From: an uncultured Anaerolineae bacterium
GTDB lineage: Bacteria > Chloroflexota > Anaerolineae > Anaerolineales > Villigracilaceae
Reading direction: 5' to 3'
DNA: 58,649 bases
Assembly: GCA_903846015.1 (NCBI GenBank)
Contig: CAIMZS010000630.1
Span: forward strand, 1 to 58,649
Both the position numbers and the translations under genes were made by a program. Below the pieces are notes generated by a model, which worked only from the letters and a program-made list of their open reading frames with translations, ran no database searches and had not been told where the DNA came from. This document shows, in pieces, positions 40,338 through 56,769 of this stretch (positions within the stretch are counted from its first letter, which is position 1; the number at the start of each line of letters is the position of its first letter).

Positions 40338-40409
40338 GCCCTGCTAGAACGGGCACTATCGGCCCTGCTAGAACGGGCACTATCGGCCCTGCTAGAACGG
40401 GCACTATCG
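40338..40409 (+). repeat. Three tandem copies of the 24-nt module (GCCC/GGGC stem variant)
   Basis: Three identical head-to-tail 24-mers, each GCCCTG followed by CTAGAACGGGCACTATCG. The hairpin here is GCCC/GGGC around TGCTAGAAC. The array lies in the 5' region of the leftward DUF389 gene, about 105 bp before its start. Confidence 0.95.
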
Positions 40410-40490
40410 TGGAAAACGCGGATAAGACCTTTAGTATACCATCCACCTGACAGGGTGCCATTTACTTCTAGCACAAGATGTTCGATGCCC

Positions 40491-40541
40491 GTGGCCGTGG
40501 CCGTGCTAGAACCGGCACTATCGCAGAACCGGGTACCATTG
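40491..40541 (+). repeat. Composite module: GTGGCC run, 18-mer A, 18-mer variant
   Basis: GTGGCCGTGGCCGTG is followed by CTAGAACCGGCACTATCG and then CAGAACCGGGTACCATTG. The last 18-mer reappears nearly unchanged at 41168-41185, on the other side of hypA. Confidence 0.9.
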
Positions 40542-40696
40542 TATTTCCAATTATAAAGGGGAAGGAAACAAGCGGAAGGGTAGTAACCGTTGATAGAGGC
40601 TGTTAATATAAACTCCCCGGCACAAATCTGCGATTATTGGCCGGGTTGCGCATTCTCATTCATAATAAATTTGAGGTTCAAGTGGCTAAGGAAACG

Positions 40697-41041
40697 TCAC
40701 GTTTCAATGTCGATGCTCTCCACCCTTAATTCATCGCCCTTGCTGACGCGAACACGCGCGCTTCCACAAGCCGGGCAGGAAAAGGTACGCTCATCTGGCT
40801 CAAAAACATGACCACAGTCAAAGCAGCGCATCTCGGTTGGAATACGTTCGAAGTGTAAGATTGCCCCCTCGGCGATGCTTCCTTCCGCGATCATACTCCA
40901 ATAGAATTGGATCGAATCATCCACTGCAGTTGCCAGCCTGCCGATAACAAGGTTGATGCCGGTTACTCGTTTAGCGCCGGAACTTTCGGCGTTGCGAAGG
41001 GCGATTTCAAGAATACTTTGGGCGATGGGGAGTTCATGCAT
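40697..41041 (-). CDS. hypA: Hydrogenase nickel-insertion protein HypA
   Basis: 114-aa metallochaperone that delivers nickel to the large subunit of [NiFe] hydrogenase. The N terminus MHELPIA has the Ni-binding His2, and the zinc site is CFDCG to CPACG (about 74-95). Length is normal. It lies upstream of and divergent to the hydrogenase operon; hypB, C, D, E and F are not in the window. Module copies lie on both sides of the gene. The ATG sits only 6 nt after a TAGTCT sequence and has no clear ribosome site. Confidence 0.93.
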   Translation of the reverse strand: MHELPIAQSILEIALRNAESSGAKRVTGINLVIGRLATAVDDSIQFYWSMIAEGSIAEGAILHFERIPTEMRCFDCGHVFEPDERTFSCPACGSARVRVSKGDELRVESIDIET

Positions 41042-41160
41042 GGGTTAAGACTACCAACTTTGTGCGAATTTTCCAATAGTGAAAAGTCACTAGCTGGCAT
41101 GACTTTCATCCACCATTTTGATTGCCCGGTTCTATACGAAGTTACTTCAGACGTTTTTAT

Positions 41161-41185
41161 GCCCGTGCAGAACCGGGTACCATGA
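41161..41185 (+). repeat. Partial module (CCCG/CGGG stem variant)
   Basis: GCCCGTG followed by CAGAACCGGGTACCATGA. Arms CCCG and CGGG surround TGCAGAAC. A reversed copy of the CAGAACCGGG part (CCCGGTTCT, 41125-41133) lies 35 bp to the left, making a 9-bp inverted pair. Confidence 0.75.
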
Positions 41186-41265
41186 AAAATCTATAATCAT
41201 CAGGAAAAGTGCGAACAATATTTCGGAAAAAGACAGTTTTATAAAAAATCCCTACCTATGTTAAA

Positions 41266-41398
41266 TAACGTCAATAATGGATAAGGATTTTCAACCTAAA
41301 AAATTCGTTTACAGCACTAAAATTCGCTGTAAATGAGCATTTTTAAGCCAAAAATCTGGCTTTTTGAAGCACAATTTGCTTATCCATTATTCACGTTA
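41266..41398. repeat. 133-bp inverted-repeat element upstream of hybO
   Basis: Arms of 20 bp (41266-41285 and 41379-41398) pair with one mismatch; their inner 13 bp AATAATGGATAAG are perfect. Inside are two smaller hairpins: TTTACAGC/GCTGTAAA and AGCC/GGCT. The element is AT-rich and non-coding. It could be a MITE-like insertion or a folded regulatory segment of the hydrogenase promoter region. I see no clear target duplication. Confidence 0.6.
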
Positions 41399-41421
41399 AA
41401 TATTGTAAGTTGGAAAACGAG

Positions 41422-41446
41422 TTTGTCATAAATATTTAGTGACAAA
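41422..41446. promoter_or_regulatory. Operator-like dyad upstream of the hydrogenase operon
   Basis: TTTGTCA and TGACAAA are perfect complements 11 bp apart around an AT-rich centre (TAAATATTTAG), about 137 bp before the hybO start. Spacing and AT core resemble binding sites of dimeric redox or CRP-family regulators, but it matches neither the FNR nor the Rex consensus exactly. Confidence 0.4.
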
Positions 41447-41582
41447 TAGCATAATTGAATCGTTTTTAGTTAATGCTACATTAATCTATGCATATTTTCA
41501 TTAGTTTTTCTTTTGGAAAAGCTTTTCAGTATCAAATCCAATAATAGTAATATCCAATTCAACCGTTCGGGAGGAGGTAATT

Positions 41583-42704
41583 ATGAGCGATTCCAGCTTA
41601 GAGCAAGCCGTTAGAGAGCGTGGAATTTCGCGAAGGAGTTTCCTGAAGTTTTGCGCAGTGATGGCGGGGACGCTGGCCTTGAGTTCATCTTATGGAACCA
41701 GGATAGCCAAGGCGCTGGCAGCTCCAAAGCGCACACCACTGGTATGGCTTGAATTTCAGGATTGCGCAGGCAATACAGAAGCTCTCCTGCGTTCATCCAG
41801 GCCCACAGTTGGCGAAATTGTGCTGGATGTCCTCTCCGTGGACTACCACGAAACGATCATGGCCGCAGCAGGAACTCAAGCGGAAAAATCTAAGAAAGAT
41901 GCCATTGCTGCTGGCGGTTACCTGCTGGTAGTGGAAGGCTCGATCCCTACTGCCGATGGTGGGGTATATTGCACGATCGGCGGGCGCACAGCCATGGATA
42001 TTCTCAGCGAAGCGGCTGCGAATGCCATTGCAGTGGTCGCGATTGGCTCATGCGCCGCCTTTGGCGGTTTGCCCAAAGCCAACCCCAACCCGACCGGTGC
42101 TAAGTCTGTCATGGAGCTGGTTACCAATAAACCGGTCATCAACCTGCCGGGCTGCCCGTGTAATGCTGTCAATTTGACTGCCACGGTTGTACATTTCCTG
42201 ACTTTCGGTGAACTGCCCAAAATGGATAGCCAGAACCGGCCGCTCTTTGCTTATGGCGCCCGCATCCACGATAACTGCCCACGCCGTGGGCACTTTGACC
42301 GCGGCGAGTTTGTGCGCGCTTGGGACGATGATGGTCATCGCAAAGGCTGGTGCCTCTATCAGATGGGTTGCAAGGGTCCGGTTACCTTCCACAACTGTCC
42401 GGCGGTGGGATACAACGATAATACCAGTTGGCCGATCAAGGCGGGGCATGGCTGTATTGCCTGTTCTGAGGCGGGCTTCTGGGAATTGGGTCTTTATAAC
42501 AAGGCCAAGCTGCAGGAGTTCGCGCCGCCATCTACCTATGCGCCTGTTCAAATGCCAGTCCAATCACTTTCCCCCACTACCACCGCTATTGTCGGTGGTG
42601 CGGCCGGTCTGGCAGTCGGTGCGGCCGGGGCGGCAGCTTATATTCAGCTTTCTAAACCCGATAAAATGGAAGTACCCGAAAGTGCCCAGGCTGAAAAGAA
42701 GTAG
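41583..42704 (+). CDS. hybO: [NiFe] hydrogenase small subunit, Tat-exported
   Basis: 373-aa Fe-S subunit that relays electrons from the NiFe site. A Tat signal (SRRSFLKF, Arg17-Arg18) and a hydrophobic stretch open the protein, and a C-terminal membrane helix (about 330-352, AIVGGAAGLAVGAAGAAAY) anchors it. Cluster ligands are visible: proximal CAGN (Cys61), IGSC and PGCPC; distal His and Cys in IHDNCPRR plus WCLYQMGC; medial HNCPAV and CIACSE. The proximal C-x-x-C is changed to C-x-x-N (Asn64), while an extra Cys appears in PGCPC instead of the usual PGCPP. First gene of hybOABCD, so its role is periplasm-facing hydrogen oxidation linked to the quinone pool. Confidence 0.94.
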   Translation: MSDSSLEQAVRERGISRRSFLKFCAVMAGTLALSSSYGTRIAKALAAPKRTPLVWLEFQDCAGNTEALLRSSRPTVGEIVLDVLSVDYHETIMAAAGTQAEKSKKDAIAAGGYLLVVEGSIPTADGGVYCTIGGRTAMDILSEAAANAIAVVAIGSCAAFGGLPKANPNPTGAKSVMELVTNKPVINLPGCPCNAVNLTATVVHFLTFGELPKMDSQNRPLFAYGARIHDNCPRRGHFDRGEFVRAWDDDGHRKGWCLYQMGCKGPVTFHNCPAVGYNDNTSWPIKAGHGCIACSEAGFWELGLYNKAKLQEFAPPSTYAPVQMPVQSLSPTTTAIVGGAAGLAVGAAGAAAYIQLSKPDKMEVPESAQAEKK

Positions 42705-42713
42705 GAGGCTGTC

Positions 42714-43601
42714 ATGTCACCCATGAGCCGAAGGAATTTCCTAAAAGTTGTCGGTGCCAGTCTCGCAGCTGGTGCTTCGCTTTCTGTTCTGCCGAATGTA
42801 AGTGCTCGTTCGGCTGCCGAAGATGCCGACAATTATGTGGCCATGCTCTATGATGCCACCATATGCGTTGGTTGCAATGCCTGCACAAATGCCTGCCGGC
42901 AGTGGAACAAAACCAAGGTGGAGGTGGACCCAACCGGGCTCTACGATGCACCCCAAGAACTCTCAGCCGATACGTGGACGCTTATCCAGCTCTACCAGCC
43001 CACAGATAGCGCTGAAGGGAGTGAATATTCTTTCGTAAAGCGCCAGTGTATGCATTGCGTTGACCCGGCTTGCGTCAGCGGATGTCCCGTGCACGCCCTA
43101 CAGAAATCAGCCAATGGTCCGGTTACTTATGACAAGGATCGCTGCATTGGCTGCCGTTACTGCATGTACACTTGTCCTTACCATGTTCCGCGCTTCCAGT
43201 GGGATCAGGTTATCCCGGTGGTGACCAAATGCACCCTGTGTTCTGATCGTCTTGCGGATGGTAAGGGACCGGCATGTGCGGAGCGCTGTCCAACCGGTGC
43301 GTTGACGTGGGGTCGCCGCGGCGATTTGATCGCTGAAGCCGAAAAACGCCTGGCTAACGAACCCGGCCGTTATGTAAATCACATATTTGGCAAGGATGAC
43401 GCGGGCGGTACTTCGGTTTTGTATCTTTCCCACGTTCCATTTGACAAGCTTGGTTTCCCAAATCTAAAATCTGAGCCTGTGCCTCAGTTAAGCGAGCGCA
43501 CCAGCGACATCTTCCTGCCTGGTATTGTAGTAGGCGGTACATGCGCATTGGCGGCGGTTAGCTGGGTGGTCAAAAAAGGCGGATTGGAGGATGAGGCATG
43601 A
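42714..43601 (+). CDS. hybA: Hydrogenase four-cluster ferredoxin subunit, Tat-exported
   Basis: 295-aa electron-transfer subunit. The Tat signal is SRRNFLKV near the N terminus. Sixteen cysteines form four [4Fe-4S] motifs: CVGCNACTNAC, CMHCVDPACVSGC, CIGCRYCMYTC and CTLCSDRLADGKGPACAERC. A C-terminal helix (IFLPGIVVGGTCALAAVSWVV) probably anchors it. AGGAGG precedes the ATG, 9 bp after hybO. Its stop overlaps the start of hybB. It passes electrons from the small subunit to the membrane subunit. Confidence 0.93.
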   Translation: MSPMSRRNFLKVVGASLAAGASLSVLPNVSARSAAEDADNYVAMLYDATICVGCNACTNACRQWNKTKVEVDPTGLYDAPQELSADTWTLIQLYQPTDSAEGSEYSFVKRQCMHCVDPACVSGCPVHALQKSANGPVTYDKDRCIGCRYCMYTCPYHVPRFQWDQVIPVVTKCTLCSDRLADGKGPACAERCPTGALTWGRRGDLIAEAEKRLANEPGRYVNHIFGKDDAGGTSVLYLSHVPFDKLGFPNLKSEPVPQLSERTSDIFLPGIVVGGTCALAAVSWVVKKGGLEDEA

Positions 43602-44731
43602 AAGCCGTGACGAAACTCAAGAAGCCAATTCCTACCAGTTTTTACCCCCTGGCCTTGCTGGCTCTTTTAGCGGTCGGATTATCCATTTACCGGCTCGTGG
43701 CCGGGCTTGGCGCCACCACCAATATGAACGATCACTATCCGTGGGGTATATGGATCACCATTGACTTGTTCCTGATCCCCGTTGCTGGCGCTGCTTTTAC
43801 CATTTCCCTGATCACCTATTTCTTTGGGCGTGGAAGATACCACTCCGTCATTCGCCCGGCAGTACTGGCAGGGTTTTTAGGCTATGGCATTGTCGGTGTT
43901 TTGTTGTTCCTGGATATCGGGCGTTGGCCGCAGTTTTACAATATCCTTGTTCCGGGTTTTATCAATCTACATTCCTTCCTGGAAGAAGTCAGCCTGTGCA
44001 TTACGCTCTATACGGTCATCCTGGTGTTGGAGATTGCCCCTGTTTTTCTTGAAAAATACAATATTAAGGCGCCAATCGGTTGGATCAATTCATCGATTTA
44101 CTGGATCGCCGGCATTGGTATTGTGCTCTCCACCCTGCATCAATCATCACTTGGTTCAATGTTCCTACTGATGCCCTACAAACTCCATCCGCTCTGGTGG
44201 ACACCTGCTTTGCCAGTGCTCTTTTTCTTGCAAGCGGTTTATACCGGGCTGGGCACGACCGCCATCGCCATTAACCTGGTCTGGCGCGCGATGGGACTTC
44301 CCATCGACCGTCAGTTGTTCAAGCGCATCGGGCAGGCCATGAGCCTGATGTTGGCGCTTTACCTGGCAGTTAAAGTTGGCGATTGGATGGGAGCTGGTGA
44401 AGTTGACCTGCTGCTCAAACCGGATGCCTTCGGTGTGCTGGCATGGATCGAGATCATTCTCGGCGTTGCCATTCCGCTGATTATCCTGTATTCCCGCCTG
44501 GGATCCCATTCGCAGGGTCCCTTCTGGGCAGGCGTTTTTGTCCTGATTGGAACTTTTATCAACCGGCTGATCGTTAGTTGGATTGGTCTGGCTGAACCGT
44601 CTCATGTGCCCTACACTCCTTCCTGGATAGAGATCATGATCACGGTCGGGTTGATGGCTGGTGGCGTCCTGGTTTATAGTATAGTGGCACGTTCTTTTCA
44701 GCTCTTTCCTGAAGAGCATTCTGGATCATGA
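43598..44731 (+). CDS. hybB: Hydrogenase NrfD-type membrane subunit
   Basis: 377-aa integral membrane protein of the NrfD/PsrC/HybB family with about ten helices and no haem-binding pattern. DHYPWGIWI near residue 45 and helix-rich blocks (FINLHSFLEEVSLCITLYTVI, LSTLHQSSLGSMFLLMP) are family hallmarks. It exchanges electrons and protons with menaquinone. It overlaps hybA by 4 bp. The 198-bp gap to hybC, filled with repeats, is the only large gap in the operon. Confidence 0.93.
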   Translation: MKAVTKLKKPIPTSFYPLALLALLAVGLSIYRLVAGLGATTNMNDHYPWGIWITIDLFLIPVAGAAFTISLITYFFGRGRYHSVIRPAVLAGFLGYGIVGVLLFLDIGRWPQFYNILVPGFINLHSFLEEVSLCITLYTVILVLEIAPVFLEKYNIKAPIGWINSSIYWIAGIGIVLSTLHQSSLGSMFLLMPYKLHPLWWTPALPVLFFLQAVYTGLGTTAIAINLVWRAMGLPIDRQLFKRIGQAMSLMLALYLAVKVGDWMGAGEVDLLLKPDAFGVLAWIEIILGVAIPLIILYSRLGSHSQGPFWAGVFVLIGTFINRLIVSWIGLAEPSHVPYTPSWIEIMITVGLMAGGVLVYSIVARSFQLFPEEHSGS

Positions 44732-44890
44732 GATTGCCACGCCGCAAAGAACGCGCTCGGCCCTGCTAGGACGGGTACTATCGCAATGAAAATGTAGACC
44801 AGATTGCCACGCCGTAAAGAACGCGGCTCGCAATGACAATATAGACCAGATTGCCATGCCGTAAAGAACGCGGCTCGCAATGACAATATA
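44731..44890 (+). repeat. Three tandem 47-nt REP-like repeats, the first interrupted
   Basis: Units start AGATTGCCACGCCG and end CTCGCAATGACAATATAGACC; they can fold through ATTGC/GCAAT and GCCG/CGGC arms. Copies lie at 44731-44800, 44801-44847 and 44848-44890. Without its 24-nt insert the first copy is 46 nt, one G short. Similar REP-like hairpins are common between bacterial genes. Confidence 0.9.
44760..44783 (+). repeat. 24-nt module inserted inside a REP-like repeat
   Basis: GCCCTG followed by CTAGGACGGGTACTATCG splits the first 47-nt repeat exactly between CTCG and CAATG, with a CG on each side of the join. The two intact copies next to it show the uninterrupted sequence. Confidence 0.93.
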
Positions 44891-44897
44891 TAAATAT

Positions 44898-44914
44898 CCC
44901 GGCTCTAGCACGGG
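44898..44914 (-). repeat. Module core in reverse orientation before hybC
   Basis: Read leftward this is CCCGTGCTAGAGCCGGG: arms CCCG/CGGG around TGCTAGAGC, a third compensated stem variant. It lies directly before the GGAGG ribosome site of hybC and is the only clearly reversed copy. Confidence 0.75.
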
Positions 44915-44929
44915 ATTGGAGGTTACACA

Positions 44930-46666
44930 ATGCCAAAGATAGCGATTGATCCAATTACTCGTATTGAGGGCCATTTACGCATCGAGGTTCAGGTAGAGGA
45001 TGGTGCAGTTAAGGATGCCTGGGCGTCCAGCACCATGTTCCGCGGTGTTGAACTGATTCTCAAGGGTCGCGACCCTCGCGAAGCCTGGGCCATTACGCAG
45101 CGTTTCTGCGGCGTCTGTACCACTGTCCATGCTTTTAGCTCTGTACGCGCAGTGGAAGATGCCCTGAAAATCACAATCCCGAACAACGCCCGTATACTCC
45201 GAAACATTATTGAAGGTATCCAGTTCGTTCAGGATCATGTCGTTCATTTCTATCACCTGCATGCGCTCGACTGGGTGGATGTGGTCAGTGCTCTGAGCGC
45301 TGATCCGGCGGCAACATCCAAGCTGGCCCAATCGATCTCCGATTGGCCTAAATCAAGCGAGAGCTATTTTAAAGGTGTTAAGGATAAACTGACGGTCTAT
45401 GTTCAAAGCGGGCAATTAGGCCCATTTGCCAACGCATACTGGGGTCACCCGGCTTACAAACTGCCTCCCGAAGCCAATCTGATGGCTGTGGCGCATTACC
45501 TTGAAGCGCTCGATTGGCAGCGGGATGTTATCCGGGCACACGCCATCCTGGGAAGCAAAAATCCACACCTGCAGACGTATCTGGTGGGTGGCATGGCGAC
45601 TCCGATCGACCCAACCAGCCAGGCAGCCATCAACGCGGATTCAATCGCCATGCTGCAAGGCTTATTCAAAACTGCCAAAGATTTCGTGGATAAGGTCTAT
45701 CTGCCCGATCTTCTTGCCATTGCGCCGTTCTACCTTGATTGGGCCGGCATTGGTGGCGGGGTGGGTAACTTCCTGGCATACGGTGAGTACCCCGATAAGG
45801 ATGGCAACCTGTATTTCCCGCAGGGCTTCATCCTGAACAAGGATCTTACTAAAGTTTACCCTGTCGATCACAGCAAGATCAACGAACATGTTTCGCACTC
45901 ATGGTATGAGTACAATGATGAAAGCAAGGGTCTGCACCCGTGGGAAGGTGAAACAAGACCCAAGTTTACTGGTCCTCAGCCGCCCTTTGATTTCCTGGAG
46001 ACTGACAAGAAATACACCTGGATGAAGGCGCCGCGTCTTGATGAGCATCCAATGGAAGTAGGCCCGCTGGCGCGTATGCTGATTGGCTATGCCAGTGGTC
46101 AGAAAGACATCGTCGACACCGTTAATTTTGTGCTGAAAAAACTTGGCGCGGGTCCCGAAGCGCTCTTCTCCACGCTCGGACGCACAGCCGCCCGCTGCAT
46201 CGAAACTGTTTTGCTTGCAAACAAGCTTCAGGAATGGGTTGGTGAACTAGCCGCGAACATCAAGGCTGGTGACGTCGATGTTCACGAGGGCAAACTGTGG
46301 GACCCCGAAACCTGGCCTGCAGAAGCCAAAGGCTGGGGCCACATCGAAGCGCCGCGCGGTGCCTTGGGTCACTGGATCCACATCAAGGATAAGAAAATCT
46401 TCAATTATCAGGCGGTCGTACCCAGCACATGGAACGCTTCGCCGCGCGATGCCAAGGGCCAGATGGGGCCGTACGAATCTGCCCTAATTGGCACCCCGAT
46501 CGCCGATCCGAACATGCCGCTTGAGGTTCTGCGCACGATCCATTCATTTGATCCGTGTATTGCTTGTGGTGTGCACCTGTTGGATGCGGATGGGCATGAG
46601 CTTTACCAGGTATCGGTGGATGCCCCCATCGGTTTCACCAGCCCGCTGCTAAAGTTTAGAGCCTAG
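44930..46666 (+). CDS. hybC: [NiFe] hydrogenase large (catalytic) subunit
   Basis: 578-aa catalytic subunit that splits hydrogen at a NiFe(CN)2CO site. The L1 motif is RIEGHLRIEV with FCGVCTTVH (two nickel Cys, about 61 and 64) and the C-terminal motif is DPCIACGVH (about 541-549). The 29 residues after the final His (starting LLDADGHELYQ) are the tail removed during maturation; they are longer than the 15-residue tail of E. coli HybC. GGAGG precedes the ATG. Operon position and motifs place it in group 1, with the protein exported by riding on the HybO Tat signal. Confidence 0.96.
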   Translation: MPKIAIDPITRIEGHLRIEVQVEDGAVKDAWASSTMFRGVELILKGRDPREAWAITQRFCGVCTTVHAFSSVRAVEDALKITIPNNARILRNIIEGIQFVQDHVVHFYHLHALDWVDVVSALSADPAATSKLAQSISDWPKSSESYFKGVKDKLTVYVQSGQLGPFANAYWGHPAYKLPPEANLMAVAHYLEALDWQRDVIRAHAILGSKNPHLQTYLVGGMATPIDPTSQAAINADSIAMLQGLFKTAKDFVDKVYLPDLLAIAPFYLDWAGIGGGVGNFLAYGEYPDKDGNLYFPQGFILNKDLTKVYPVDHSKINEHVSHSWYEYNDESKGLHPWEGETRPKFTGPQPPFDFLETDKKYTWMKAPRLDEHPMEVGPLARMLIGYASGQKDIVDTVNFVLKKLGAGPEALFSTLGRTAARCIETVLLANKLQEWVGELAANIKAGDVDVHEGKLWDPETWPAEAKGWGHIEAPRGALGHWIHIKDKKIFNYQAVVPSTWNASPRDAKGQMGPYESALIGTPIADPNMPLEVLRTIHSFDPCIACGVHLLDADGHELYQVSVDAPIGFTSPLLKFRA

Positions 46667-46674
46667 GACAGCCT

Positions 46675-47190: not shown

Positions 47191-47231
47191 TTCGCCCAAT
47201 CGTTGCACGGATCAGCGTCCGTAATCATCTC

Positions 47232-47294
47232 GTGGCCGTGCTAGAACCGGCACTATCGCTAGAATCGGGACTAACGCGGGAACCGGGACTAACG
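47232..47294 (+). repeat. Module array: GTGGCCGTG plus three 18-mers
   Basis: GTGGCCGTG is followed by CTAGAACCGGCACTATCG (form A), CTAGAATCGGGACTAACG (intermediate) and CGGGAACCGGGACTAACG (form B). It shows that the 18-nt part alone can be tandemly multiplied. It lies after hybD. Confidence 0.92.
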
Positions 47295-47327
47295 TCGTAA
47301 GGATCGCCCGCATAATGATTCTGAAAA

Positions 47328-47567
47328 TCATTGTGCAGCGATGAAAGCTGTCAATAGAACCAGGCTGACCGCCAGGAATAACACGGATGTGCCGCAGCCT
47401 TTTGTGGTGCGGTTGTAGATCCGGTTATAGGCTGCTTTTCTGGGGTTTGTCAGCCAACCCATCCCGCGCGGAGCCTTCAGCCCCAGGCTGTTTTGCACGA
47501 TACGCTTTATGGAAGTTCGGGCGGCAATTCGTTTCCTGATCGATGGTATTCGTATTCCAATTTTCAT
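47328..47567 (-). CDS. Small basic protein with C-terminal membrane helix
   Basis: 79-aa protein that I do not recognise. The first 55 residues are very basic (KIGIRIPSIRKRIAARTSIKR, then NPRKAAYNRIYNRTTKG); the last 20 form a membrane helix (VLFLAVSLVLLTAFIAAQ). A strong AAAGGGAG ribosome site lies 6 nt before the ATG, which argues that it is a real gene despite its size. The YNRIYNRTT stretch looks like a conserved motif. A tail-anchored nucleic-acid- or lipid-binding peptide is possible. Confidence 0.55.
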   Translation of the reverse strand: MKIGIRIPSIRKRIAARTSIKRIVQNSLGLKAPRGMGWLTNPRKAAYNRIYNRTTKGCGTSVLFLAVSLVLLTAFIAAQ

Positions 47568-48259: not shown

Positions 48260-48278
48260 TGATTTTATCCTGTGTCTC

Positions 48279-48317
48279 GTGGCTGTGGCCGAGGCCGTGC
48301 TGGAACCGGCACTATCG
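48279..48317 (+). repeat. Composite module with three GTGGCY-type hexamers
   Basis: GTGGCTGTGGCCGAGGCC plus GTG is followed by CTGGAACCGGCACTATCG. It lies in the 5' leader of the leftward membrane-protein gene and keeps that frame open. Confidence 0.88.
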
Positions 48318-48433
48318 GAATGGGATCGAAAAAAGGAAGGCGCGGGATAAATCGCCGTTTCCGAAAATACCAAGGGTGGATATCAATCCATCTGATTGTG
48401 CATCACTTTTTCTCTTTTAGCAACCCCATTGTT

Positions 48434-49551: not shown

Positions 49552-50567
49552 GAACCTTTTCCTACCAGCCGCTCGCACGCCTTGATGATTCGTTCCACAT
49601 TCGGTAGCGTTGCATCTTCCAGGGCACGCGCAAATGGAATGCTGGTCTGTGTGCACACGCGCGCAAACTGGAAGTTCAGGCCCGCCTCCAGCGCCACAGC
49701 CGCAAGTTCGCCGGAAAGACCAAAACCCTCGTAATCTTCATCCACGACCACCAGCCTGCCGGTGCGGCTGACTTCTTTGCAGACAGCCGCCTTGTCCAGC
49801 GGCGATACGCTGCGCAGGTCGAGCACGCCGATTGAGATGCCGCGCTTTTCCAAAAGGGTGGCTGCTTGCAAGGCGCGGTGAACCCCCACCCCAAGTGTTG
49901 CGATCGTTATATCGGATCCATTTCTCACCAGCGCTGCTGTGCCAATCGGCAGCGGCTGCCATACCAGCGGTGCAGGACCGCGCACTCCCGATGCGGGAAC
50001 ATCGAAGCGCACTGTATCGCGCCCTCCCGAGCCAACAAAATCCAACCACAGCGGTGAGAGCAGTTTGTGTTCCATGAAAACTACTGGTGAACCCAGTCCC
50101 AGAGCGGCCAGCATTAACCCGCCCGCATCTGCCGGGTTGGACGGGACCACTACGCTCAACCCGGGGATGTGCGCCAGCCAGCCCCACAGGCTCTGCTCGT
50201 GCTGGCCGCCGTCCCCATAACCGCCGCCGCAGGTCGTCCGAACCACCAGTGGCACCTGCCAGCGCCCGCCGGAAAACGCATCCAGCTTGGCGGCATGGTT
50301 GAGCAGCGCATCTATTCCTACGCCGATGAAATCCACCAGCATCACCTCAGCAACTGGGCGCAAACCAGCCATCGCTGCTGCAACAGACGCGCCCAGGAAA
50401 GCTGCTTCACTGATCGGCGTGTTGCGTACCCGTTCGCGCCCAAAACGCATGAACAGGCCACCGTGCTGCCCTTGCACATCCTCGCCCAGCAGGATGACGC
50501 GCGGGTCCGCAGCCATTGCCTGTCCCAGCGCATCATCGATTGCATCTGAAAAGTTGATTTGTCTCAT
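49548..50567 (-). CDS. 2-Oxoacid dehydrogenase E1 beta subunit (acetoin/pyruvate type)
   Basis: 339-aa beta subunit of a thiamine-diphosphate-dependent E1. Typical blocks: ILLGEDVQGQHGGLF, TPISEAAFLGASVAAAMAGLRPVAE, GGGYGDGGQHEQSLWGW and VVPSNPADAGGLM. The C-terminal half has the transketolase C domain (VVVDEDYEGFGLSGELAA). Its start overlaps the E1 alpha stop by 4 bp. No E2 or E3 gene is in the window, so it either shares them or works without a classical complex. Confidence 0.88.
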   Translation of the reverse strand: MRQINFSDAIDDALGQAMAADPRVILLGEDVQGQHGGLFMRFGRERVRNTPISEAAFLGASVAAAMAGLRPVAEVMLVDFIGVGIDALLNHAAKLDAFSGGRWQVPLVVRTTCGGGYGDGGQHEQSLWGWLAHIPGLSVVVPSNPADAGGLMLAALGLGSPVVFMEHKLLSPLWLDFVGSGGRDTVRFDVPASGVRGPAPLVWQPLPIGTAALVRNGSDITIATLGVGVHRALQAATLLEKRGISIGVLDLRSVSPLDKAAVCKEVSRTGRLVVVDEDYEGFGLSGELAAVALEAGLNFQFARVCTQTSIPFARALEDATLPNVERIIKACERLVGKGS

Positions 50568-51595
50568 ATTTCACTTCCACGTGCTTGGAGTGACGTTGCC
50601 ATGATTTGCCCGGTTTCATGGCGGATGGCGTTTTCCAGCTCACCCAGCCGGGTTGGGTTTTCTGTCATCAAGGCAGGTCGGGTGCGCGCGAGAGGATCAT
50701 TTTGCCGGGCTGTTTGAGCTTGCGCCACGACCACATAACCCAGAATTTGTCTCAGCGAGGCCAGGCGCTCGTTCCAGGGGGCGCCGCCTCTTCGGAAAAA
50801 ACCCTTCATCATTGGCCAGATGCGCTTGCGGAAGGAATAAAGCGGCCGCCGCAGCATATCCAGCAGTCCATCGCCCAGAAAATGGCCCTCGAGATGGATG
50901 CAGTGGGCCCACAGGAAAACAGGTCCACCTCCGCCGCGGGCGTGGCGCAGCGCAGCCTCACTCGCTAACCAGACCGCCGCCACATCCGCGCCATCCACTT
51001 CAAAGGCCTTCATCCCAAAGGCCTGGGCGCGTGCTAGCAGGTCTCCACCCACGGCCATATATGCTGGCGTGGTGATCCCGATGGCATTATCCTTGCATAC
51101 AAAGATGACCGGCAGCTTCCATACCACCGCCAGGTTCATCGATTCCATCAACATGCCCTGGCTGGTGGCGCTCTCCCCAAAGAAGGCCACCGAGACCGTA
51201 CCCGGACGCAGCATCTGTCCGGCCAGTGCAAAACCGACCGCTGCCGGCCCGGAGGCGCCGACGATACCCGAGGATGCCGCCAATTTTTCTGGCGCAAAAA
51301 GGTGCATGTGTCCGCCCATGCCACCACATAGCCCATCTGGCTGCCCCATGAATTCGCGCAGCAGCGCGACTGGATCAACACCCCGCATCAACATGGGCGG
51401 CGTGCCTCGATGTTCGAGTGCCAGCGCATCGCCTTCGATCAGTTGCGAAACTATCCCGGCGGCGATGGCTTCCTCGCCCATGCCCAGGTGCATCTCCCCT
51501 GATATTTGGCCGTCTTTCCATATCTGCCGAACAGCTTCTTCAAAGCAGCGGCTTTTGAACATCATTGCATACAAATTCCACATATCAGGGGGCAT
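50564..51595 (-). CDS. 2-Oxoacid dehydrogenase E1 alpha subunit, altered TPP motif
   Basis: 343-aa alpha subunit with the usual blocks EEAVRQIWKDGQISGEMHLGMGEEA (N terminus), HRGTPPMLMRG, GGMGGHMHLF and KLPVIFVCKDN. The thiamine-binding motif reads GESATSQG to KDN; the family norm is GDG to ENN, so the Mg-binding Asp is Glu and the following Gly is Ser. It may use a different metal geometry or have altered activity. It is coupled to E1 beta and lies 21 bp after a small membrane-protein gene. Confidence 0.85.
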   Translation of the reverse strand: MPPDMWNLYAMMFKSRCFEEAVRQIWKDGQISGEMHLGMGEEAIAAGIVSQLIEGDALALEHRGTPPMLMRGVDPVALLREFMGQPDGLCGGMGGHMHLFAPEKLAASSGIVGASGPAAVGFALAGQMLRPGTVSVAFFGESATSQGMLMESMNLAVVWKLPVIFVCKDNAIGITTPAYMAVGGDLLARAQAFGMKAFEVDGADVAAVWLASEAALRHARGGGGPVFLWAHCIHLEGHFLGDGLLDMLRRPLYSFRKRIWPMMKGFFRRGGAPWNERLASLRQILGYVVVAQAQTARQNDPLARTRPALMTENPTRLGELENAIRHETGQIMATSLQARGSEI

Positions 51596-51616
51596 GATGG
51601 ATTCCTTGGCGCAGCT

Positions 51617-52054
51617 CTACCGGATGAATTCCCGTCGGTGTCTCCACAGTAGGAGCACCAATACCGGCCCAAGTGACATGAGCATTAGCACGATGATCAG
51701 TTCGATTGCTCCCGCCTGATTGAGTGGCACAAACATGGCATGCTGCAAGTCGAATAGTAAATCCTCCAGTCCCAGGAAGATCGCGCCGCCAGCCGCAAGC
51801 AGCGTGGACAAAAATCCCCAATCACGCATCTTCCACAGTCCGACTATCCCCACTAATGTGGCTATCGTCACAAAGGCATCCGGCAGGATGAAAGCCTCTT
51901 CATAACCCACGTACACGGCATAATCCGGGTCGCCGGGTACGCGCGCCTGAACAACATCCGGAGCCAGAAACCAGGCGTACCAGTAGGCGCTGAATGCAAA
52001 AATAGCAAAAATTCCGATTCCAATTGAAGCATTGATGCCGGTAGGACGTTTCAT
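51617..52054 (-). CDS. Four-helix membrane protein upstream of the E1 genes
   Basis: 145-aa protein with about four helices (SIGIGIFAIFAFSAYWYAWF, AFVTIATLVGIVGLWKM, LLAAGGAIFLGLEDLLF, IELIIVLMLMSLGPVLVLL) and an extracytoplasmic loop DPDYAVYVGYEEAFILPD. Not recognised. Two ATG codons are two codons apart; the second (52054) is preferred because AAGGAG lies 8 nt upstream of it but only 2 nt before the first. It is probably cotranscribed with the E1 genes. Confidence 0.7.
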   Translation of the reverse strand: MKRPTGINASIGIGIFAIFAFSAYWYAWFLAPDVVQARVPGDPDYAVYVGYEEAFILPDAFVTIATLVGIVGLWKMRDWGFLSTLLAAGGAIFLGLEDLLFDLQHAMFVPLNQAGAIELIIVLMLMSLGPVLVLLLWRHRREFIR

Positions 52055-52191
52055 AGGCATTTCTCCTTGGGGGTAATTTATTGCATAATAATAGCGCAAA
52101 ATCTACCTCTGTGGATCCTCTTATTTGTCCAATTCACGGCAATTGTGTATTGAACAGGAGTATATCGGACAACAAGCCCAGGACACATCCC

Positions 52192-52219
52192 TTGCAAGAC
52201 ACAAAGCTGGCAGTATAAT
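52192..52219 (+). promoter_or_regulatory. Candidate promoter of the first M24-fold gene
   Basis: TTGCAA and TATAAT are separated by 16 bp. Transcription would start near 52226, leaving a leader of about 140 nt that contains one module copy (52247-52270). The rest of this 309-bp intergenic space shows nothing else I can name. Confidence 0.5.
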
Positions 52220-52246
52220 TTCGCTCGCATGCTGGATATTAACAGC

Positions 52247-52270
52247 CTCGTGCGGGAATCGGGACTACCG
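52247..52270 (+). repeat. Module form B in an mRNA leader
   Basis: CTCGTG followed by CGGGAATCGGGACTACCG, a B-form 18-mer without an A-form copy. It lies in the predicted leader of the M24-fold gene. Confidence 0.75.
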
Positions 52271-52363
52271 CCTCGATGGTTTGCGTCATGGAATGAGTAT
52301 TTAATCTGGCATTGTCTCGGCAGATACAAAATAAAATTATTCAGGCAGTAAGCAAGAGGAAAA

Positions 52364-53551
52364 ATGATGACACCCCAACAACCCCATCCAGCAATCCCGG
52401 TTTCAGAATATCCGCAGCGCTGGCAAAGAGTTCAGGCCGCGATGGTTGAACATGAACTTGATTTTTTGGTGGCATACGCCGATGACCGCGCCACCTTTGG
52501 CCCGGCGCATGCCCGCTGGCTAGCAAACTTCCCGGTTCATTTTGAACCGGTCTGCATTCTGCTATCCAGGTACGGCGATCCGGTCATGCTGGTTGGGCCG
52601 GAAAGCGACCAGTATGCGCTGCTGGTTGGGCAGATCAGCGATGTGAGAGTCTTGCGGGAGTTTACCCATCCAAACGAGGATTATCCTTTTTCCAGGATAC
52701 AGAGCCTGAAGGAAGTCATGGCCGAAATGGGACAGGATACCCAATCTGCGCGGCGCGTTGGCTTGGCCGGGCGCGGTTTGATCGGGGCTGATGTGATCGC
52801 CGCCTGGCAAACTGCCCTGCCCAACCTGGTTTGGGTGGATATGGAAAATAGTCTGTGTGATATCCGATCCCAAAAATCAGCTTCCGAAATTGAAGTGATC
52901 CGTTATGCTTATAAAATTGCCGATGCGGGTTTTCAGGCCGCGGTTGATACGATCCAACCCGGTGTGACGGAACGCCAGGTTGCGGCCGAAATTGATGCAG
53001 CCATGCGCCGGGCCGGATCTGAAGGCACCGGGATTGATACAATTGTTGCATCCGGCCCTAATACCCGCCCCATTCTGGCTCGTTCCACTTTTCGCCCCAT
53101 TGCTGCCAATGACCTGGTATTGCTGACGATTGCCCCGCGCTATGAAGGTTATCATGCCGCCATTGGGCGGGTTGTCATGGTGGGCAACCCTGATCCTGAG
53201 ATCCGGCGGGCCCTGGATGTTGCCATTCAGGCTCAATTGGCCTGTTCCATTGCGCTGCGCCCTGGTATTGAAGGCCGCCAGGTTGAATCGATTGGCAGAC
53301 AGGTCGTAGCTGCGGGCAACCTGGGGCAATATTTTCTGTATTCAGGCGTGCACAGCCTGGGGGTGATTGAATTTGAAGCTCCCATTTTTGGACCAAGCAG
53401 CCCGGCGGTTTTGAAGAAGGGTATGATCATTTCCATTGATATCCCCATGTTCAATGCTCCTTGGGGTGGTCTGCGAATTGAAAATGGCTACTTGATTACC
53501 GCTGACGGTGCAGAGCCGCTTCACGATACTCCCTACCTGATTCAAAAATAG
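52364..53551 (+). CDS. Creatinase/M24-fold protein lacking metal aspartates (1)
   Basis: 395-aa pita-bread-fold protein with an N-terminal creatinase-like domain (to about 165) and a C-terminal M24 domain. Aminopeptidase P relatives have two Asp ligands in this region; here the matching stretch reads LVLLTIAPRYEGYHAAIGRVVMVG, with Thr and Ala at those positions. The catalytic-type His (SGVHSLGVIEFEAP) and the last Glu (LRIENGYLIT) remain, and the other Glu is Asp (ISIDIPMF). Like creatinase it probably does not need a two-metal site. Substrate unknown; a small amidine or amide compound is possible. Confidence 0.8.
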   Translation: MMTPQQPHPAIPVSEYPQRWQRVQAAMVEHELDFLVAYADDRATFGPAHARWLANFPVHFEPVCILLSRYGDPVMLVGPESDQYALLVGQISDVRVLREFTHPNEDYPFSRIQSLKEVMAEMGQDTQSARRVGLAGRGLIGADVIAAWQTALPNLVWVDMENSLCDIRSQKSASEIEVIRYAYKIADAGFQAAVDTIQPGVTERQVAAEIDAAMRRAGSEGTGIDTIVASGPNTRPILARSTFRPIAANDLVLLTIAPRYEGYHAAIGRVVMVGNPDPEIRRALDVAIQAQLACSIALRPGIEGRQVESIGRQVVAAGNLGQYFLYSGVHSLGVIEFEAPIFGPSSPAVLKKGMIISIDIPMFNAPWGGLRIENGYLITADGAEPLHDTPYLIQK

Positions 53552-53562
53552 CCAGCGTTCTC

Positions 53563-53613
53563 GTGGCCGTGGCCGTGCTAGAACCGGCACTATCGCGGGA
53601 AACGGGACTACCG
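53563..53613 (+). repeat. Composite module abutting the cutC stop codon
   Basis: GTGGCCGTGGCCGTG, CTAGAACCGGCACTATCG and CGGGAAACGGGACTACCG run in series and end on the base before the cutC stop. It fills nearly the whole gap between the M24-fold gene and cutC. Confidence 0.93.
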
Positions 53614-54357
53614 TCATCCGGGCACATCTGCCGCTCGAATTATTTTCTCGATACTCTCAACATTCGTTTCCTTGCGAATGTATTCATCTGGTTCGTAGGC
53701 TTTACCCATAAAAACGTGCCGGTTGCGAAAGATCATTGGGCTGTCAACCTTCTTGCGAGCCGCGAAGTGTGCTTCTTTCACCCTGGTCTGCGCTAAGATG
53801 GCGGCAATATTGCCTGCATTGATCCCGCCTCCTGCCAGGATGATTGTTCGTCCGGCGGCTTTCTGCACCAGGCTGGCGATGCTGGCTGCGCCTTGTAGCG
53901 CGGTCGGCATTTGTCCGGATGTCAGGATGCGCTCGATACCCAGTCCGCAGATCGCTTCCAGCGCTTCGTGTGGGTTACGGCACAGGTCGAAGGCCCGGTG
54001 AAAAGTCACGCTCATCGGGCGCGCTGTTTCCACCAGGGCGCGTGTCTTCTCCGCATCAACACTGCCATCCGGGTTGAGCAGGCCAATCACCACGCCGCTG
54101 GCACCGGCATCCCTGGCCGCCAGGATATCCCGGTGCATCACCTCAACTTCCAGCTTGCTGTAACAAAAATCCCCCCCACGCGGGCGGATGATGACGTTAA
54201 CATCGATCGAGACCGATTGGCAGGCAAGTTGGATCATGCCCAGGCTGGGGGTCGTGCCGCCTTCCACCAGGTTGTCGCACAGTTCAATACGCTGTGCCCC
54301 GGCCGCCTGCGCCGCCAACGCCCCTTCCACTGAATCAACACATACTTCAAATATCAT
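53614..54357 (-). CDS. cutC: Copper homeostasis protein CutC family
   Basis: 247-aa TIM-barrel protein. N terminus IFEVCVDSVEGALAAQAAGAQRIELC, then GGTTPSLGMI, IRPRGGDFCYS and the block TFHRAFDLCRNPHEALE are diagnostic of CutC. Originally linked to copper tolerance in E. coli; the molecular activity is still debated. The C-terminal 12 residues (EKIIRAADVPG) run right up to the module. Another module fills the gap upstream. Confidence 0.92.
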   Translation of the reverse strand: MIFEVCVDSVEGALAAQAAGAQRIELCDNLVEGGTTPSLGMIQLACQSVSIDVNVIIRPRGGDFCYSKLEVEVMHRDILAARDAGASGVVIGLLNPDGSVDAEKTRALVETARPMSVTFHRAFDLCRNPHEALEAICGLGIERILTSGQMPTALQGAASIASLVQKAAGRTIILAGGGINAGNIAAILAQTRVKEAHFAARKKVDSPMIFRNRHVFMGKAYEPDEYIRKETNVESIEKIIRAADVPG

Positions 54358-54371
54358 TTCACATCCATTTT

Positions 54372-54418
54372 GTGGCCGTGCTCTAGAACCGGCACTGTCG
54401 CGGGAACCAGGATTATCG
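54372..54418 (+). repeat. Composite module filling the gap between cutC and the isoaspartyl peptidase
   Basis: GTGGCCGTG, CTCTAGAACCGGCACTGTCG (A form with two extra bases) and CGGGAACCAGGATTATCG. The 63-bp intergenic space consists almost only of this element, ending 2 bp before the stop codon of the next gene. Confidence 0.9.
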
Positions 54419-54420
54419 TC

Positions 54421-55356
54421 TTAATCCCGAATCCACATCTCTTTGCCGCCTGAAATACAGGCATGCACCATGTGGCTTGTGTTGAATGCGCTCCCTACCT
54501 CACCGGCCGGGTTGATCAACACAATCCCGCCCTGGCTGGGGCCAGTTCGCCGCTCCAGCAGGCGCAGCACTTGTTCGGCAGCCTGTTGCGGACTCATCCC
54601 GCTGCCCATCAGGTCGCAGGCGGTTTTACTGAACATGACCTTCATCAGCGCCTCACCGCTTCCGGTGGCCGCTGCCGCACCCAATTCGTTATCCGCGTAC
54701 CCGCCGCAGCCAATGATCGGGCTGTCTCCCACCCGGCCCGGCATCTTCCCGGCTGTGCCTCCAGTTGAGACCGCCACCGCCAGCAGCCCGCTGGCATCCA
54801 TCGCGATCGCCCCGACCGTGTCCCCGGTCTGGCTGGCCTGTCCACCGACCGTGGCCGTGTTGGATCCGGCACTATCGCTAGAACAGGCACTATCGAAAAT
54901 CCGGTCTTCCGGGCGCAGTAGGTGGATGCTGCTGCCGGCGACCAGTTCTTCCATCGGGCAGACCGGCACGCCCATTGAGCGGGCAAATTGCTCGGCTCCC
55001 GCGCCTACAAAGATGGAATGCCGCGAACGCTCCATTACCAGGCGCGCCGTGCTGACCGGGTTGCTGACTCGCTGGATGCCCGCTACAGCACCGTAACCCA
55101 GCCTTGCGCCTTCCATTACCATCGCATCCATTTCCACTTCATTGTTGGCATTCAAGAACGAACCATGCCCTGCGTCAAAATTCGGGTCGTCTTCCATCAC
55201 CCGCACCGCCGCCTCCACCGCGTCCAGCGCCGAACCGCCCCGCAGCAACACATCCCAGCCTGCGTGGGTAGCCTGCTCAACCCCGGCGCGGAATTCCGCC
55301 ACGCGCTCGTCAAAATCGTTCCCGGCACCGCCATGCACCACAATGACAGGTTCCAC
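54421..55356 (-). CDS. Isoaspartyl peptidase/L-asparaginase with module insertion
   Basis: 311-aa N-terminal nucleophile hydrolase that cleaves isoaspartyl peptides and asparagine after self-cleavage into two chains. VIVVHGGAG opens the protein, the catalytic Thr is in TGDTVGAIAMD, and STGGTAGKMPGRVGDSPIIGCGGYAD gives the substrate site. It starts with GTG, whose first base is the last base of the preceding stop, with GAGGAG upstream. Residues about 155-168 (DSACSSDSAGSNTA) are encoded by a two-unit module inserted in frame, in the flexible linker just before the self-cleavage site. That linker is normally variable, so activity is probably kept. Confidence 0.88.
   Translation of the reverse strand: MEPVIVVHGGAGNDFDERVAEFRAGVEQATHAGWDVLLRGGSALDAVEAAVRVMEDDPNFDAGHGSFLNANNEVEMDAMVMEGARLGYGAVAGIQRVSNPVSTARLVMERSRHSIFVGAGAEQFARSMGVPVCPMEELVAGSSIHLLRPEDRIFDSACSSDSAGSNTATVGGQASQTGDTVGAIAMDASGLLAVAVSTGGTAGKMPGRVGDSPIIGCGGYADNELGAAAATGSGEALMKVMFSKTACDLMGSGMSPQQAAEQVLRLLERRTGPSQGGIVLINPAGEVGSAFNTSHMVHACISGGKEMWIRD
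54851..54895 (+). repeat. Two-unit module inside the isoaspartyl peptidase gene
   Basis: GTGGCCGTG, TTGGATCCGGCACTATCG and CTAGAACAGGCACTATCG. The 24-plus-18 part is 42 nt, or 14 codons, and keeps the reading frame of the leftward gene. Confidence 0.9.
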
Positions 55357-56750
55357 TACGACTCCTCGGAAACTGCGCAAACCAGTTCGTTGGCCAGCCA
55401 GAACGGCGGCAGGTAGGCTGTGCCATCGGTTAGCGGCAGCAGTTCTTCCGCCAGGGTAATGCCCAGCGCCTCGCTCATTAACTGCCGCCTGCCCTGTGCG
55501 CGTGCCCACAACCCTGGGTGGCGCGCTTTCAGTTCAGCTCGTAGCGAAGCGTCTGCCAGCGCCACGGTGTCTTCACAGTTCATCAACCATCCCGCCTTGA
55601 GCGGTGTGGGAATGATATCGCTCTGAAAAACCATCCCTGATCGTACTTTTTCATTGCTGTCAGGCCGGATCGGCGAGCTGATCCATTCCTCATAAGATGT
55701 CAGGTGACCTGGGTTGAGTGCCGGGTGCATTCCGCTGCCTTCAAATGCGCCCATCACCGCCTGGAATACATCCCGGCCCGTTGCGCCGATGCGCATGGTT
55801 TGGTGCCAGGTGGCGACTACCTTGAAATATGGTGCAGCGATCTGATTGAAGAAGCTCTCATCTGGTTGGCCAAGCATCATCCCAGCCCGGCAGGACAGGC
55901 TTCCCCAGTAACCCAACCCGGTCGAGACCCCATCGCCATACTCAATGATCTTGTTGCTTGCGCTGCGCAGCCCGTTGATTTCACCCTTGCCCGAAACAAA
56001 AATCGGATGCATCGTCATAGGCTGCCCGGCGTAGCGCATCAATTGGATGGCCTGCATTTCGCTCATACCTGGGCGCGTGCCCCTCAGGATGTTGAACACC
56101 GCGGCAGATGCACTGCGCGCTGCCCATTCAAAAGCAGCGATTTGGTCAGCCGAATTCAGGCTGCGCAGCCCATTTTCGGGGTGCATTAACAGCGCTGTCC
56201 CATCGCTCATTTTTCCGCTTGGCCCGATCAGCCCACGCACTACATCCACAAAAAAAGCTGGCACAAAGGCCGGCGCGTTTGGGGTGTCGCCCTCGTAAAC
56301 TTCCAGATACTTCCAGCCCACCAGGTTGACCGACTGCCCGGCGCCCAGGCCGATCTTTGCCAGCACAGCCTTCAGGCTGGGAGCCGTGGTGCGAGGCTGC
56401 GAATTCAGGCTGAAGGTCTGGCACAGTTCTACGTCGACCGGCACCGGTACGATTGGGATGTAACCCATGCCTTCGTTGCCCACGATCAACGTGCGCTGTC
56501 CGCTGCGCCCCAGCGCCAGGAGAGCCTCCTCAAAGCGTGGATCAAAATTAACCAGCCAGGTCAGGTTGGCGTAATGCTCACGATCGGCGTACACCAATAC
56601 CCAGTCGCAACCCGCCGCCGCGATCAGGGCCGAAAGCCTGCGTTCGTATTCTTCAGCCGGGACGGACGGGATCACTTCCGGCCGTGCTAGATCCGGCACT
56701 ACCGGAAATTGAAACTCGGGCATTGGAATTTGTTTTAAATTGATTTTCAT
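55356..56750 (-). CDS. Creatinase/M24-fold protein lacking a complete metal site (2), with module insertion
   Basis: 464-aa pita-bread-fold protein. The N-terminal domain (to about 190) has VLVYADREHYANLTWLVNF. In the C-terminal domain the first metal Asp may be kept (EYGDGVSTGLG) but the second is replaced (GSLSCRAGMM). His in NPGHLTSYEEW is present; one Glu is Asp (FQSDIIPTP) and the other is kept (MNCEDTVALAD). A two-metal peptidase is unlikely; a creatinase-like hydrolase fits better. Residues 17-24 (VVPDLARP) are encoded by one 24-nt module. The stop overlaps the GTG of the isoaspartyl peptidase gene, so they are cotranscribed. Confidence 0.8.
   Translation of the reverse strand: MKINLKQIPMPEFQFPVVPDLARPEVIPSVPAEEYERRLSALIAAAGCDWVLVYADREHYANLTWLVNFDPRFEEALLALGRSGQRTLIVGNEGMGYIPIVPVPVDVELCQTFSLNSQPRTTAPSLKAVLAKIGLGAGQSVNLVGWKYLEVYEGDTPNAPAFVPAFFVDVVRGLIGPSGKMSDGTALLMHPENGLRSLNSADQIAAFEWAARSASAAVFNILRGTRPGMSEMQAIQLMRYAGQPMTMHPIFVSGKGEINGLRSASNKIIEYGDGVSTGLGYWGSLSCRAGMMLGQPDESFFNQIAAPYFKVVATWHQTMRIGATGRDVFQAVMGAFEGSGMHPALNPGHLTSYEEWISSPIRPDSNEKVRSGMVFQSDIIPTPLKAGWLMNCEDTVALADASLRAELKARHPGLWARAQGRRQLMSEALGITLAEELLPLTDGTAYLPPFWLANELVCAVSEES
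56678..56701 (+). repeat. 24-nt module inside the second M24-fold gene, flanked by CCGG
   Basis: CCGGCCGTGCTAGATC plus CGGCACTA, followed again by CCGG (56702-56705). Removing 24 nt restores ACTTCCGGAAATTG and keeps the frame. This is the cleanest insertion footprint in the window. Confidence 0.92.
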
Positions 56751-56769
56751 ATAGCCTCCAAATATAAGG

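Follow-up and report, generated by a model that had tools for sequence, protein, structure and literature searches.

A dispersed repeat of 24 nucleotides (nt), found in a 58,649-nt stretch of genomic DNA from an uncultured Anaerolineae bacterium (the window; contig CAIMZS010000630.1 of assembly GCA_903846015.1), is probably a very small non-autonomous mobile element, 24 nt long in this host and 27 nt in related genomes. That the unit moves as a complete 24-nt piece is well supported, and we regard it as very likely. To our knowledge, moving elements under 30 nt are barely known; if the reading is true, the repeat is among the smallest mobile DNA elements known. Its complete near-identical copies, empty sites, target rule, 24- and 27-nt versions, insertions in genes and runs of equal direction together make the mechanism testable.

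A search with the 18-mer CTAGAACCGGCACTATCG, allowing up to three mismatches, finds 13 copies in the window (40344-56704), all on the plus strand, against a mean of 0.03 and a maximum of one in shuffled sequences. Adding two related units, 41161-41183 and 52247-52270, gives eleven loci (Table 1), which agrees with the initial annotation of this DNA, where at least ten loci were noted to the right of 40.3 kb and none in the first 40 kb. The first 40 kb are indeed free of matches at this threshold, but since copies are overdispersed along the sampled host stretches (variance/mean 2.0), we draw no conclusion from this blank. The three hairpin arm versions described there, GCCG/CGGC, GCCC/GGGC (9-nt loop) and CCCG/CGGG (8-nt loop TGCAGAAC in the window), are likewise present. 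Over the whole host genome (G000; 662 contigs, 6,508,203 bases, 97.4% complete), the 18-mer has 581 matches (305 on the plus and 276 on the minus strand) against 7 (1 + 6) for the reversed pattern, so the family is not limited to the window loci. Units were studied in 1.20 Mb of host DNA, comprising the window and 80 further stretches (eight of them all N). This sample holds 239 units of 24 nt, with G at position 4 in 161 (G-form), C in 72 (C-form) and another base in 6, as well as 58 clusters of the CCCG/CGGG family. Tandem arrays with a 24-nt period occur in the host, at several contig ends among other places; the element thus probably breaks assemblies.

Evidence for movement of the complete unit comes from empty sites. 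The flanks of each copy were joined after removal of the unit and the joined sequence was sought elsewhere with at most 4 mismatches in 36, the strict count leaving out neighbours in tandem as well as any match at the same locus (within 150 nt). Exact removal of 24 nt gives a match elsewhere for 29 of 186 copies, compared with 0-2 for 21-23 nt, none for 26 nt and one for 27 nt; a looser count, which includes tandem copies matching their own array, stands at 75/232. Among the empty sites are CAGATTT repeats, the CCCGTG^CAGAACC unit and B-type units. In the window, the unit at 56681-56704 is a net 24 nt absent from the orthologous genes of two relatives (G008 and G010), and the alignments of G001 and G010 stop at 56681. 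At three sampled loci (L049, L050 and L064) the ortholog comparisons show either an insert that exceeds one unit or an ambiguous gap, and these loci are left out of the tally of clean empty sites. The region 54854-54895 corresponds to a shorter, variable linker in orthologs and PDB relatives, and with a length difference above 42 nt it therefore offers no clean test; the protein at L043:9123-10298 has no PDB match and no match in ten relatives, and is unusable for the same purpose. Copies are also mostly complete: 149 of the 157 with a perfect 5' 13-mer keep the remaining 11 nt at 0-1 mismatch.

Insertion sites share a base preference. At 43 sites without repeat words in their flanks, position -1 is G in 36 and position -2 is C or T in 38 (C 24, T 14), against a background YG frequency of 0.139, with C at +1 in 24 and at -6 in 25; these sites are partly dependent, since a few contexts recur and tandem copies are among them, and filtering on repeat words could skew the flanks. 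The preference resembles the element's own 3' end, CTATCG, and 19 of the 43 sites are flagged inside open reading frames (ORFs). Features of miniature inverted-repeat transposable elements were not seen in the unit: there is no target-site duplication beyond one ambiguous nucleotide, the hairpin stops short of the 3' end and there are no terminal inverted repeats. Long transposons were set aside, as none of the 60 longest repeat pairs in the sampled DNA exceeds 86.6% identity.

The loop of an existing unit is itself a site of insertion. The loop site divides the host unit into a 5' half of 6 nt (GCCGTG) and a 3' half of 18 nt, so that a unit inserted at GTG^C ends up with a hexamer before it and an 18-mer after it. 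Extra halves of both kinds accompany 42 units, 5' halves only 48, 3' halves only 11 and neither 138 (odds ratio 11, p = 2.7e-12). When 232 units of the A and B types were tested without regard to orientation, removal re-created a unit in 50, of which 43 are same-direction nestings (22 in the CCCG/CGGG unit, 12 in the G-form and 9 in the B type), 35 of them with exactly 24 nt. The layout of hexamers in front and 18-mers behind, reported in the initial annotation, is thus real at the loci listed, but it arises largely from nested insertion at GTG^C and not from a module grammar of 24 plus 18 nt; the order of form A before form B follows from the insertion of A in B. A recurrent composite, in which a CCCGTGCGRGAGCCGGGACTATCG unit lies inside an A unit of opposite direction at a constant loop position, could reflect either repeated insertion or the spread of a single composite as a whole.

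The 5' end of the unit forms the hairpin, with a stem of 4-5 bp and a 9-nt loop TGCTRGAAC, followed by a 3' tail of 7-8 nt ending in CG. In 332 cores, selected with the arms left out, full pairing is seen in 178/214 from the host, 16/17 from relatives and 96/101 from the others. These reduce to 62 distinct 17-mers, in which 79.8% of the arm pair cells are formed, against 64.8% in shuffles (at most 71.4%); the covariation score reaches 0.31, against 0.10 in shuffles (at most 0.16), slid controls being lower, and kinship is ignored in both figures. The paired arm changes that had been taken to imply selection for the hairpin therefore exceed shuffled expectation, but the compensation goes back to a small number of subfamily founders, with GCCG, GCCC, CTCG and CCCG arms, and not to many independent events. 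For the CTCG/CGGG form, prediction does not give the stem expected from its arms, and in RNA the minimum energy prediction for the G-form prefers GTGC/GCAC pairing.

Relatives of the host were compared at three levels (10 of the same genus, 26 of the same family and 24 of the same order). These 60 genomes have 0-6 matches each to the 18-mer, near their own controls, and only G008, of the same genus, has an exact and a 1-mismatch copy. The B-type pattern occurs in 5 of 36 relatives with 1-11 copies (control 0-1), mostly as CCCG-TGCTGGAAC-CGGG hairpins. A cross-species scan with SCCSTGCTRGAACSGGSACTA, using one genome per species and leaving the host out, gave at least 59 stretches, and the matches listed are all titled Chloroflexi or Anaerolineae/-ales/-aceae, with no cyanobacterial record among them. 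Counts of CCCGTGCTGGAACCGGGACTA at up to two mismatches are 244 in G061, 135 in the host, 99 in G062, 16 in G065, 15 in G067, 10 in G068, 5 each in G063 and G066 and 3 in G064 (control 0); of 301 genomes sampled across the order, 7 match, the host counted in, and all belong to its family. Viral carriers were also considered and dropped, as IMG/VR holds no exact match to either of two 24-mer forms.

The unit of G061 and G062 is typically 27 nt, YCCCG-TGCTGGAAC-CGGGA-CTACCACG, with a 25-nt period also present, and in places CCCCGTG heptamers stand in front and matching 3' halves behind. This version shares with the 24-nt host unit the hairpin, the nesting and the insertions in open frames. Seven matches to the empty site GGGTACTGCG^TAAATATTTGAAC were found (up to two mismatches), with four filled sites, one of them diverged, and 35 of 61 clusters, pooled from eight source assemblies, lie within stop-free frames of at least 150 codons. 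Some copies look inherited, since they occupy equal gene positions in different assemblies: a 27-nt unit is found at the matching place of like-looking genes (GLLGHEWAV-type start) in L129, L196 and L199, and of the VETGTLRGSPGSSTG gene in L192 and L197.

Insertions into genes are also common in the host. Of 200 clusters, 57 lie inside ORFs, 21 at their edges and 122 outside, whereas random places fall inside in 4103 and outside in 442 of 4930 cases (ORFs of at least 100 amino acids, called mechanically and in part spurious). Pfam matches were obtained for eight of nine insert-bearing ORFs, the exception being window ORF 55356-56750, and the families are NAD kinase, epimerase, E2 acyltransferase, cytochrome b, penicillin-binding protein, ABC transporter ATPase, the asparaginase family and FemAB-like. 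The inserted peptides read, for example, AVLEPALS, RARTGTI, DSAGSSTA and IVPVLARP. As the net length is a multiple of three and the 24-mer reads without stops in four of its six frames, insertions within genes can be tolerated; they lengthen ordinary proteins by 8-9 residues, and proteins annotated in environmental genomes of this kind probably carry short peptides contributed by the element. The excess outside ORFs is what a functional host signal kept by selection, such as a terminator or protein-binding site, would show. However, insertions of any kind are expected to be depleted in genes, and the copies are not common to relatives, have no fixed direction relative to genes and occur inside ORFs as peptide-coding inserts, so that a host signal is the least credible of the explanations considered here.

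The initial annotation had all copies but one pointing the same way. In the window all 13 matches in fact share one direction, but with the two genome strands almost equally occupied, as counted above, it is a local feature and no genome rule. Among 271 A/B clusters on 52 contigs, pairs, which are not independent of one another, agree in direction in 214/291 cases under 4 kb, 135/207 at 4-8 kb and 211/423 beyond; same-direction runs span about 4-8 kb. An all-minus run in L050 falls in a stretch collinear with G008, and assembly error is thus unlikely as the cause of such runs. Besides the A/B units, three other small host repeats appear to share the runs, the CCCG/CGGG family only weakly; A, B, CAGATTT and CTCGCAATGACA repeats (e.g. 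in L046 and L050) tend to co-orient within about 4-8 kb and are random beyond.

The sites show that complete copies insert for the most part behind (C/T)G, in many cases with C following, and with at most one ambiguous base duplicated. Loops of existing units are a frequent target, mostly in the same direction, and this gives nested stacks; on our reading, the junction behind an inserted copy (TCG^C) may again be a target, giving rise to tandem arrays. A trans-supplied enzyme that acts on single strands, such as an HUH-type nuclease, might cut after YG and also at the element's 3' end, which ends alike, and join the hairpin-marked strand; several insertions in one exposed single-stranded stretch would then leave a run of equal direction. 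A trans-acting single-strand nuclease of the HUH type, including the REP-associated tyrosine transposases (RAYT; REP, repetitive extragenic palindromic), is our leading guess, though a tentative one that falls somewhat short of an even chance, and an RNA route is ranked next. A bolder version, in which an element tuned to codon multiples at 24-27 nt spreads in strand bursts through a family-specific enzyme, is speculative and improbable on present evidence. It would have one strand of a transiently single-stranded stretch of several kb, exposed by gap repair or DNA uptake, receive the copies; if it is true, the 4-8 kb runs are scars of single insertion episodes.

Several observations weigh against a complete unit moved by such an enzyme. 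Removal of 25 nt also gives matches, for 6-7 of 186 copies, as does removal of 30 nt (0 or up to 5/186) and of the right-hand 18 nt (23/186), the last of which may arise because the family is self-similar. Perfect 3' ends (GGCACTATCG) number 214, and 37 of them have a 5' rest with at least five mismatches; nesting leaves such halves, and nested halves and truncations are counted together here. Seven of the 50 nestings are opposite in direction, all of a CCC(/T)GTGCGRGAGCC-type (CCCGTGCGRGAGCC-type) unit at another loop position with 25 nt removed, and the notion that nesting is always same-direction was dropped. As DNA, the hairpin has only a weak stem (-3.2 to -3.6 kcal/mol in the two A forms, z about -1.4). 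Folding predictions give target sites no excess of unpaired bases over random YG sites (p = 0.59), and a target in folded DNA was discarded. The direction of copies follows neither GC skew (108/200 clusters) nor gene strand (92/200), so that the replication link suggested for checking was not borne out and a replication-linked targeting rule was given up. No intact Y1/RAYT gene was found in the host, where two PF01797 hits lack, by reading, the HUH motif and the catalytic tyrosine, although at 97.4% completeness a RAYT gene may be missing from the assembly; nor do Y1 or reverse transcriptase matches track copy number across the genomes compared. Finally, the 48 copies with extra 5' halves lack 3' halves. 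Nesting does not account for these surplus hexamers, and slippage or loss must act too.

The surplus hexamers and the arrays of period 24 would also suit an origin with no mobile machinery, in which slippage grows 24-bp arrays and template switching at microhomologies or gene conversion spreads pieces of them. The fixed ends, the exact net length at unrelated sites, the fixed target position and the like 27-nt pattern in other assemblies nevertheless make this quite unlikely.

Movement through an RNA intermediate, in which a hairpin RNA becomes part of a DNA strand and a reverse transcriptase copies it, would fit the structured core with its conserved loop and compensated arms, the mostly one-directional nesting and the reverse transcriptase genes of the host (five RVT_1 matches). 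Target-primed copying, on the other hand, usually leaves 5' truncations, and the great majority of copies whose 5' part is perfect are complete, as noted above, though the 37 divergent 5' rests could still be truncations. G061 carries 244 copies and no RVT_1 match in an assembly of unstated completeness, and reverse transcriptase was accordingly rejected as the common factor. We consider an RNA route unlikely.

An equally doubtful alternative is a REP-like element moved by a RAYT (Y1) transposase since lost from the genome or absent from the assembly. The hairpin, a length within 20-40 nt and the want of a clear target duplication are in its favour, as are short uninterrupted PF01797 frames in G062 (161 amino acids) and G008 (135), judged by match alone. 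The unit has, however, no constant GTAG or CGTC tag, the host's PF01797 matches are the two degenerate ones, and G065 and G067 have only long-frame or weak matches, as judged by frame length and score. A RAYT/Y1 protein as resident enzyme was rejected on these two host hits, long-frame matches being common in relatives too. Two host stretches (L111 and L112) encode Y1-transposase-like domains without catalytic motifs, and many relatives have long frames (500-670 amino acids) with weak PF01797 matches; these may represent a domesticated family.

Small dispersed repeats (SDRs) of Nostoc punctiforme and its relatives, reportedly described by Elhai et al. in 2008, are said to be 21-27 nt long, with compensatory hairpins, nested self-insertion and occurrence inside tandem repeats, and an RNA intermediate was reportedly proposed for them. 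The statement in the initial annotation that no described element has this layout was therefore too strong. Like SDRs, the host element is present in many dispersed copies of about 21-27 nt (24 in the host, 27 in others), has a predicted secondary structure with compensatory changes (in the host from few founders, kinship ignored), inserts into itself and enters other repeats exactly. SDRs differ in their cyanobacterial phylum and HIP1 target, the host element preferring YG^C, and the latter stands apart by its many open-frame insertions, its 24- and 27-nt versions and its 4-8 kb runs. The likeness is one of kind and appears strong. Mitochondrial GC clusters and double-hairpin elements are very small hairpins, have fixed targets and nest inside one another; in these respects they resemble our element, and they differ in residing in organelle genomes. 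Among SDRs, SDR5 inserts precisely between nucleotides 3 and 4 of HIP1 (PMC4390886).

The REP and REPIN sequences associated with RAYT are described as short high-copy hairpins, taken as non-autonomous and sometimes lying in genes, with GTAG REPs reported from Chloroflexi (PMC3116915, PMC3733652). The host element is similar in being a short high-copy hairpin, sometimes inside genes, but has neither a constant GTAG/CGTC tag nor an intact RAYT seen in the host. The 24-nt unit starts with GCC and ends with TATCG; in the 27-nt units CGTC precedes the stem in part of the copies, where the target CG meets a unit starting with T. Rickettsia palindromic elements (RPEs), of about 150 bp and with short CGTC-tagged members RPE-4 and RPE-6 (PMC10969869, PMC3733652), likewise place palindromic units in frame within unrelated genes, whereas the host unit is 24-27 nt long with no constant CGTC. 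No description of this element was found in the open-licence literature, and Rfam covariance models gave no match up to E = 1 in window positions 40000-58649.

Table 1. Units and half-units of the repeat family in the window, and composite loci in the sampled host DNA
Position	Strand	Feature	Remark
40338..40409	+	Three tandem 24-nt units, GCCC/GGGC (C-form)	Window matches, layout
40487..40539	+	CCCG/CGGG unit split by nested G-form, loop entered; halves 40487-40493 and 40524-40539	Layout; nesting test
within 40487..40539	+	G-form 24-nt unit 40500-40523 with extra GCCGTG 40494-40499	Layout
41161..41183	+	Intact CCCG/CGGG unit GCCCGTGCAGAACCGGGTACCAT	Uninterrupted form of host unit at 40487..40539
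44760..44783	+	Diverged C-form unit inside CTCG^CAATGA repeat	Uninterrupted repeat copies directly downstream
47229..47294	+	G-form unit 47235-47258 nested in B-type unit (5' half 47229-47234, 3' half 47259-47276)	
47277-47294	+	Further 3' half behind nested G-form/B-type stack	
48276..48317	+	G-form unit 48294-48317 behind three hexamers (48276-48293), two diverged	Inside mechanically called ORF of opposite strand
52247..52270	+	B-type unit CTCGTGCGGGAATCGGGACTACCG, uninterrupted	
53560..53613	+	G-form unit 53572-53595 with CTCGTG and GCCGTG in front (53560-53571)	
53596-53613	+	B-type 3' half behind G-form 53572-53595	Nested
54372..54418	+	Diverged G-form core with one 3' half (54401-54418)	
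54854..54895	+	24-nt unit with 18-nt 3' half (54878-54895)	In isoaspartyl peptidase/asparaginase gene (- strand), in frame
56681..56704	+	Single 24-nt unit	In frame on - strand, near start of ORF 55356-56750
L031 (-) 5564; L038 5061; L053 7474; L079 5149; L080 (-) 787; two more		Composite of CCCGTGCGRGAGCCGGGACTATCG unit in A unit	

Other repeats accompany the family. At 44731-44874 lie three neighbouring copies of another dispersed repeat, AGATTGCCACGCCG..AAGAACGCG..CTCGCAATGACA, one of them split by the 24-mer. A further dispersed repeat, GTCTGAACCGCAGATTTACGCAGATT, has 77 matches in the host, and among 36 relatives only G001 has one (three mismatches); CACGGCGATAAATCGCCGTG and tracts of the AACCACTGAGAACACGGAG kind occur within the sampled stretches L031-L110. 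Elsewhere in the window, the translations at 40697-47190 resemble a NiFe hydrogenase operon (HypA-like protein, small subunit, ferredoxin, membrane subunit, large subunit and maturation protease), a perfect inverted repeat of 21 nt with a 3-nt spacer is found at 37147-37191, and blocks at 4448-8486 recur every 2.27-2.29 kb or so and are 70-76% alike, perhaps as duplicated genes.

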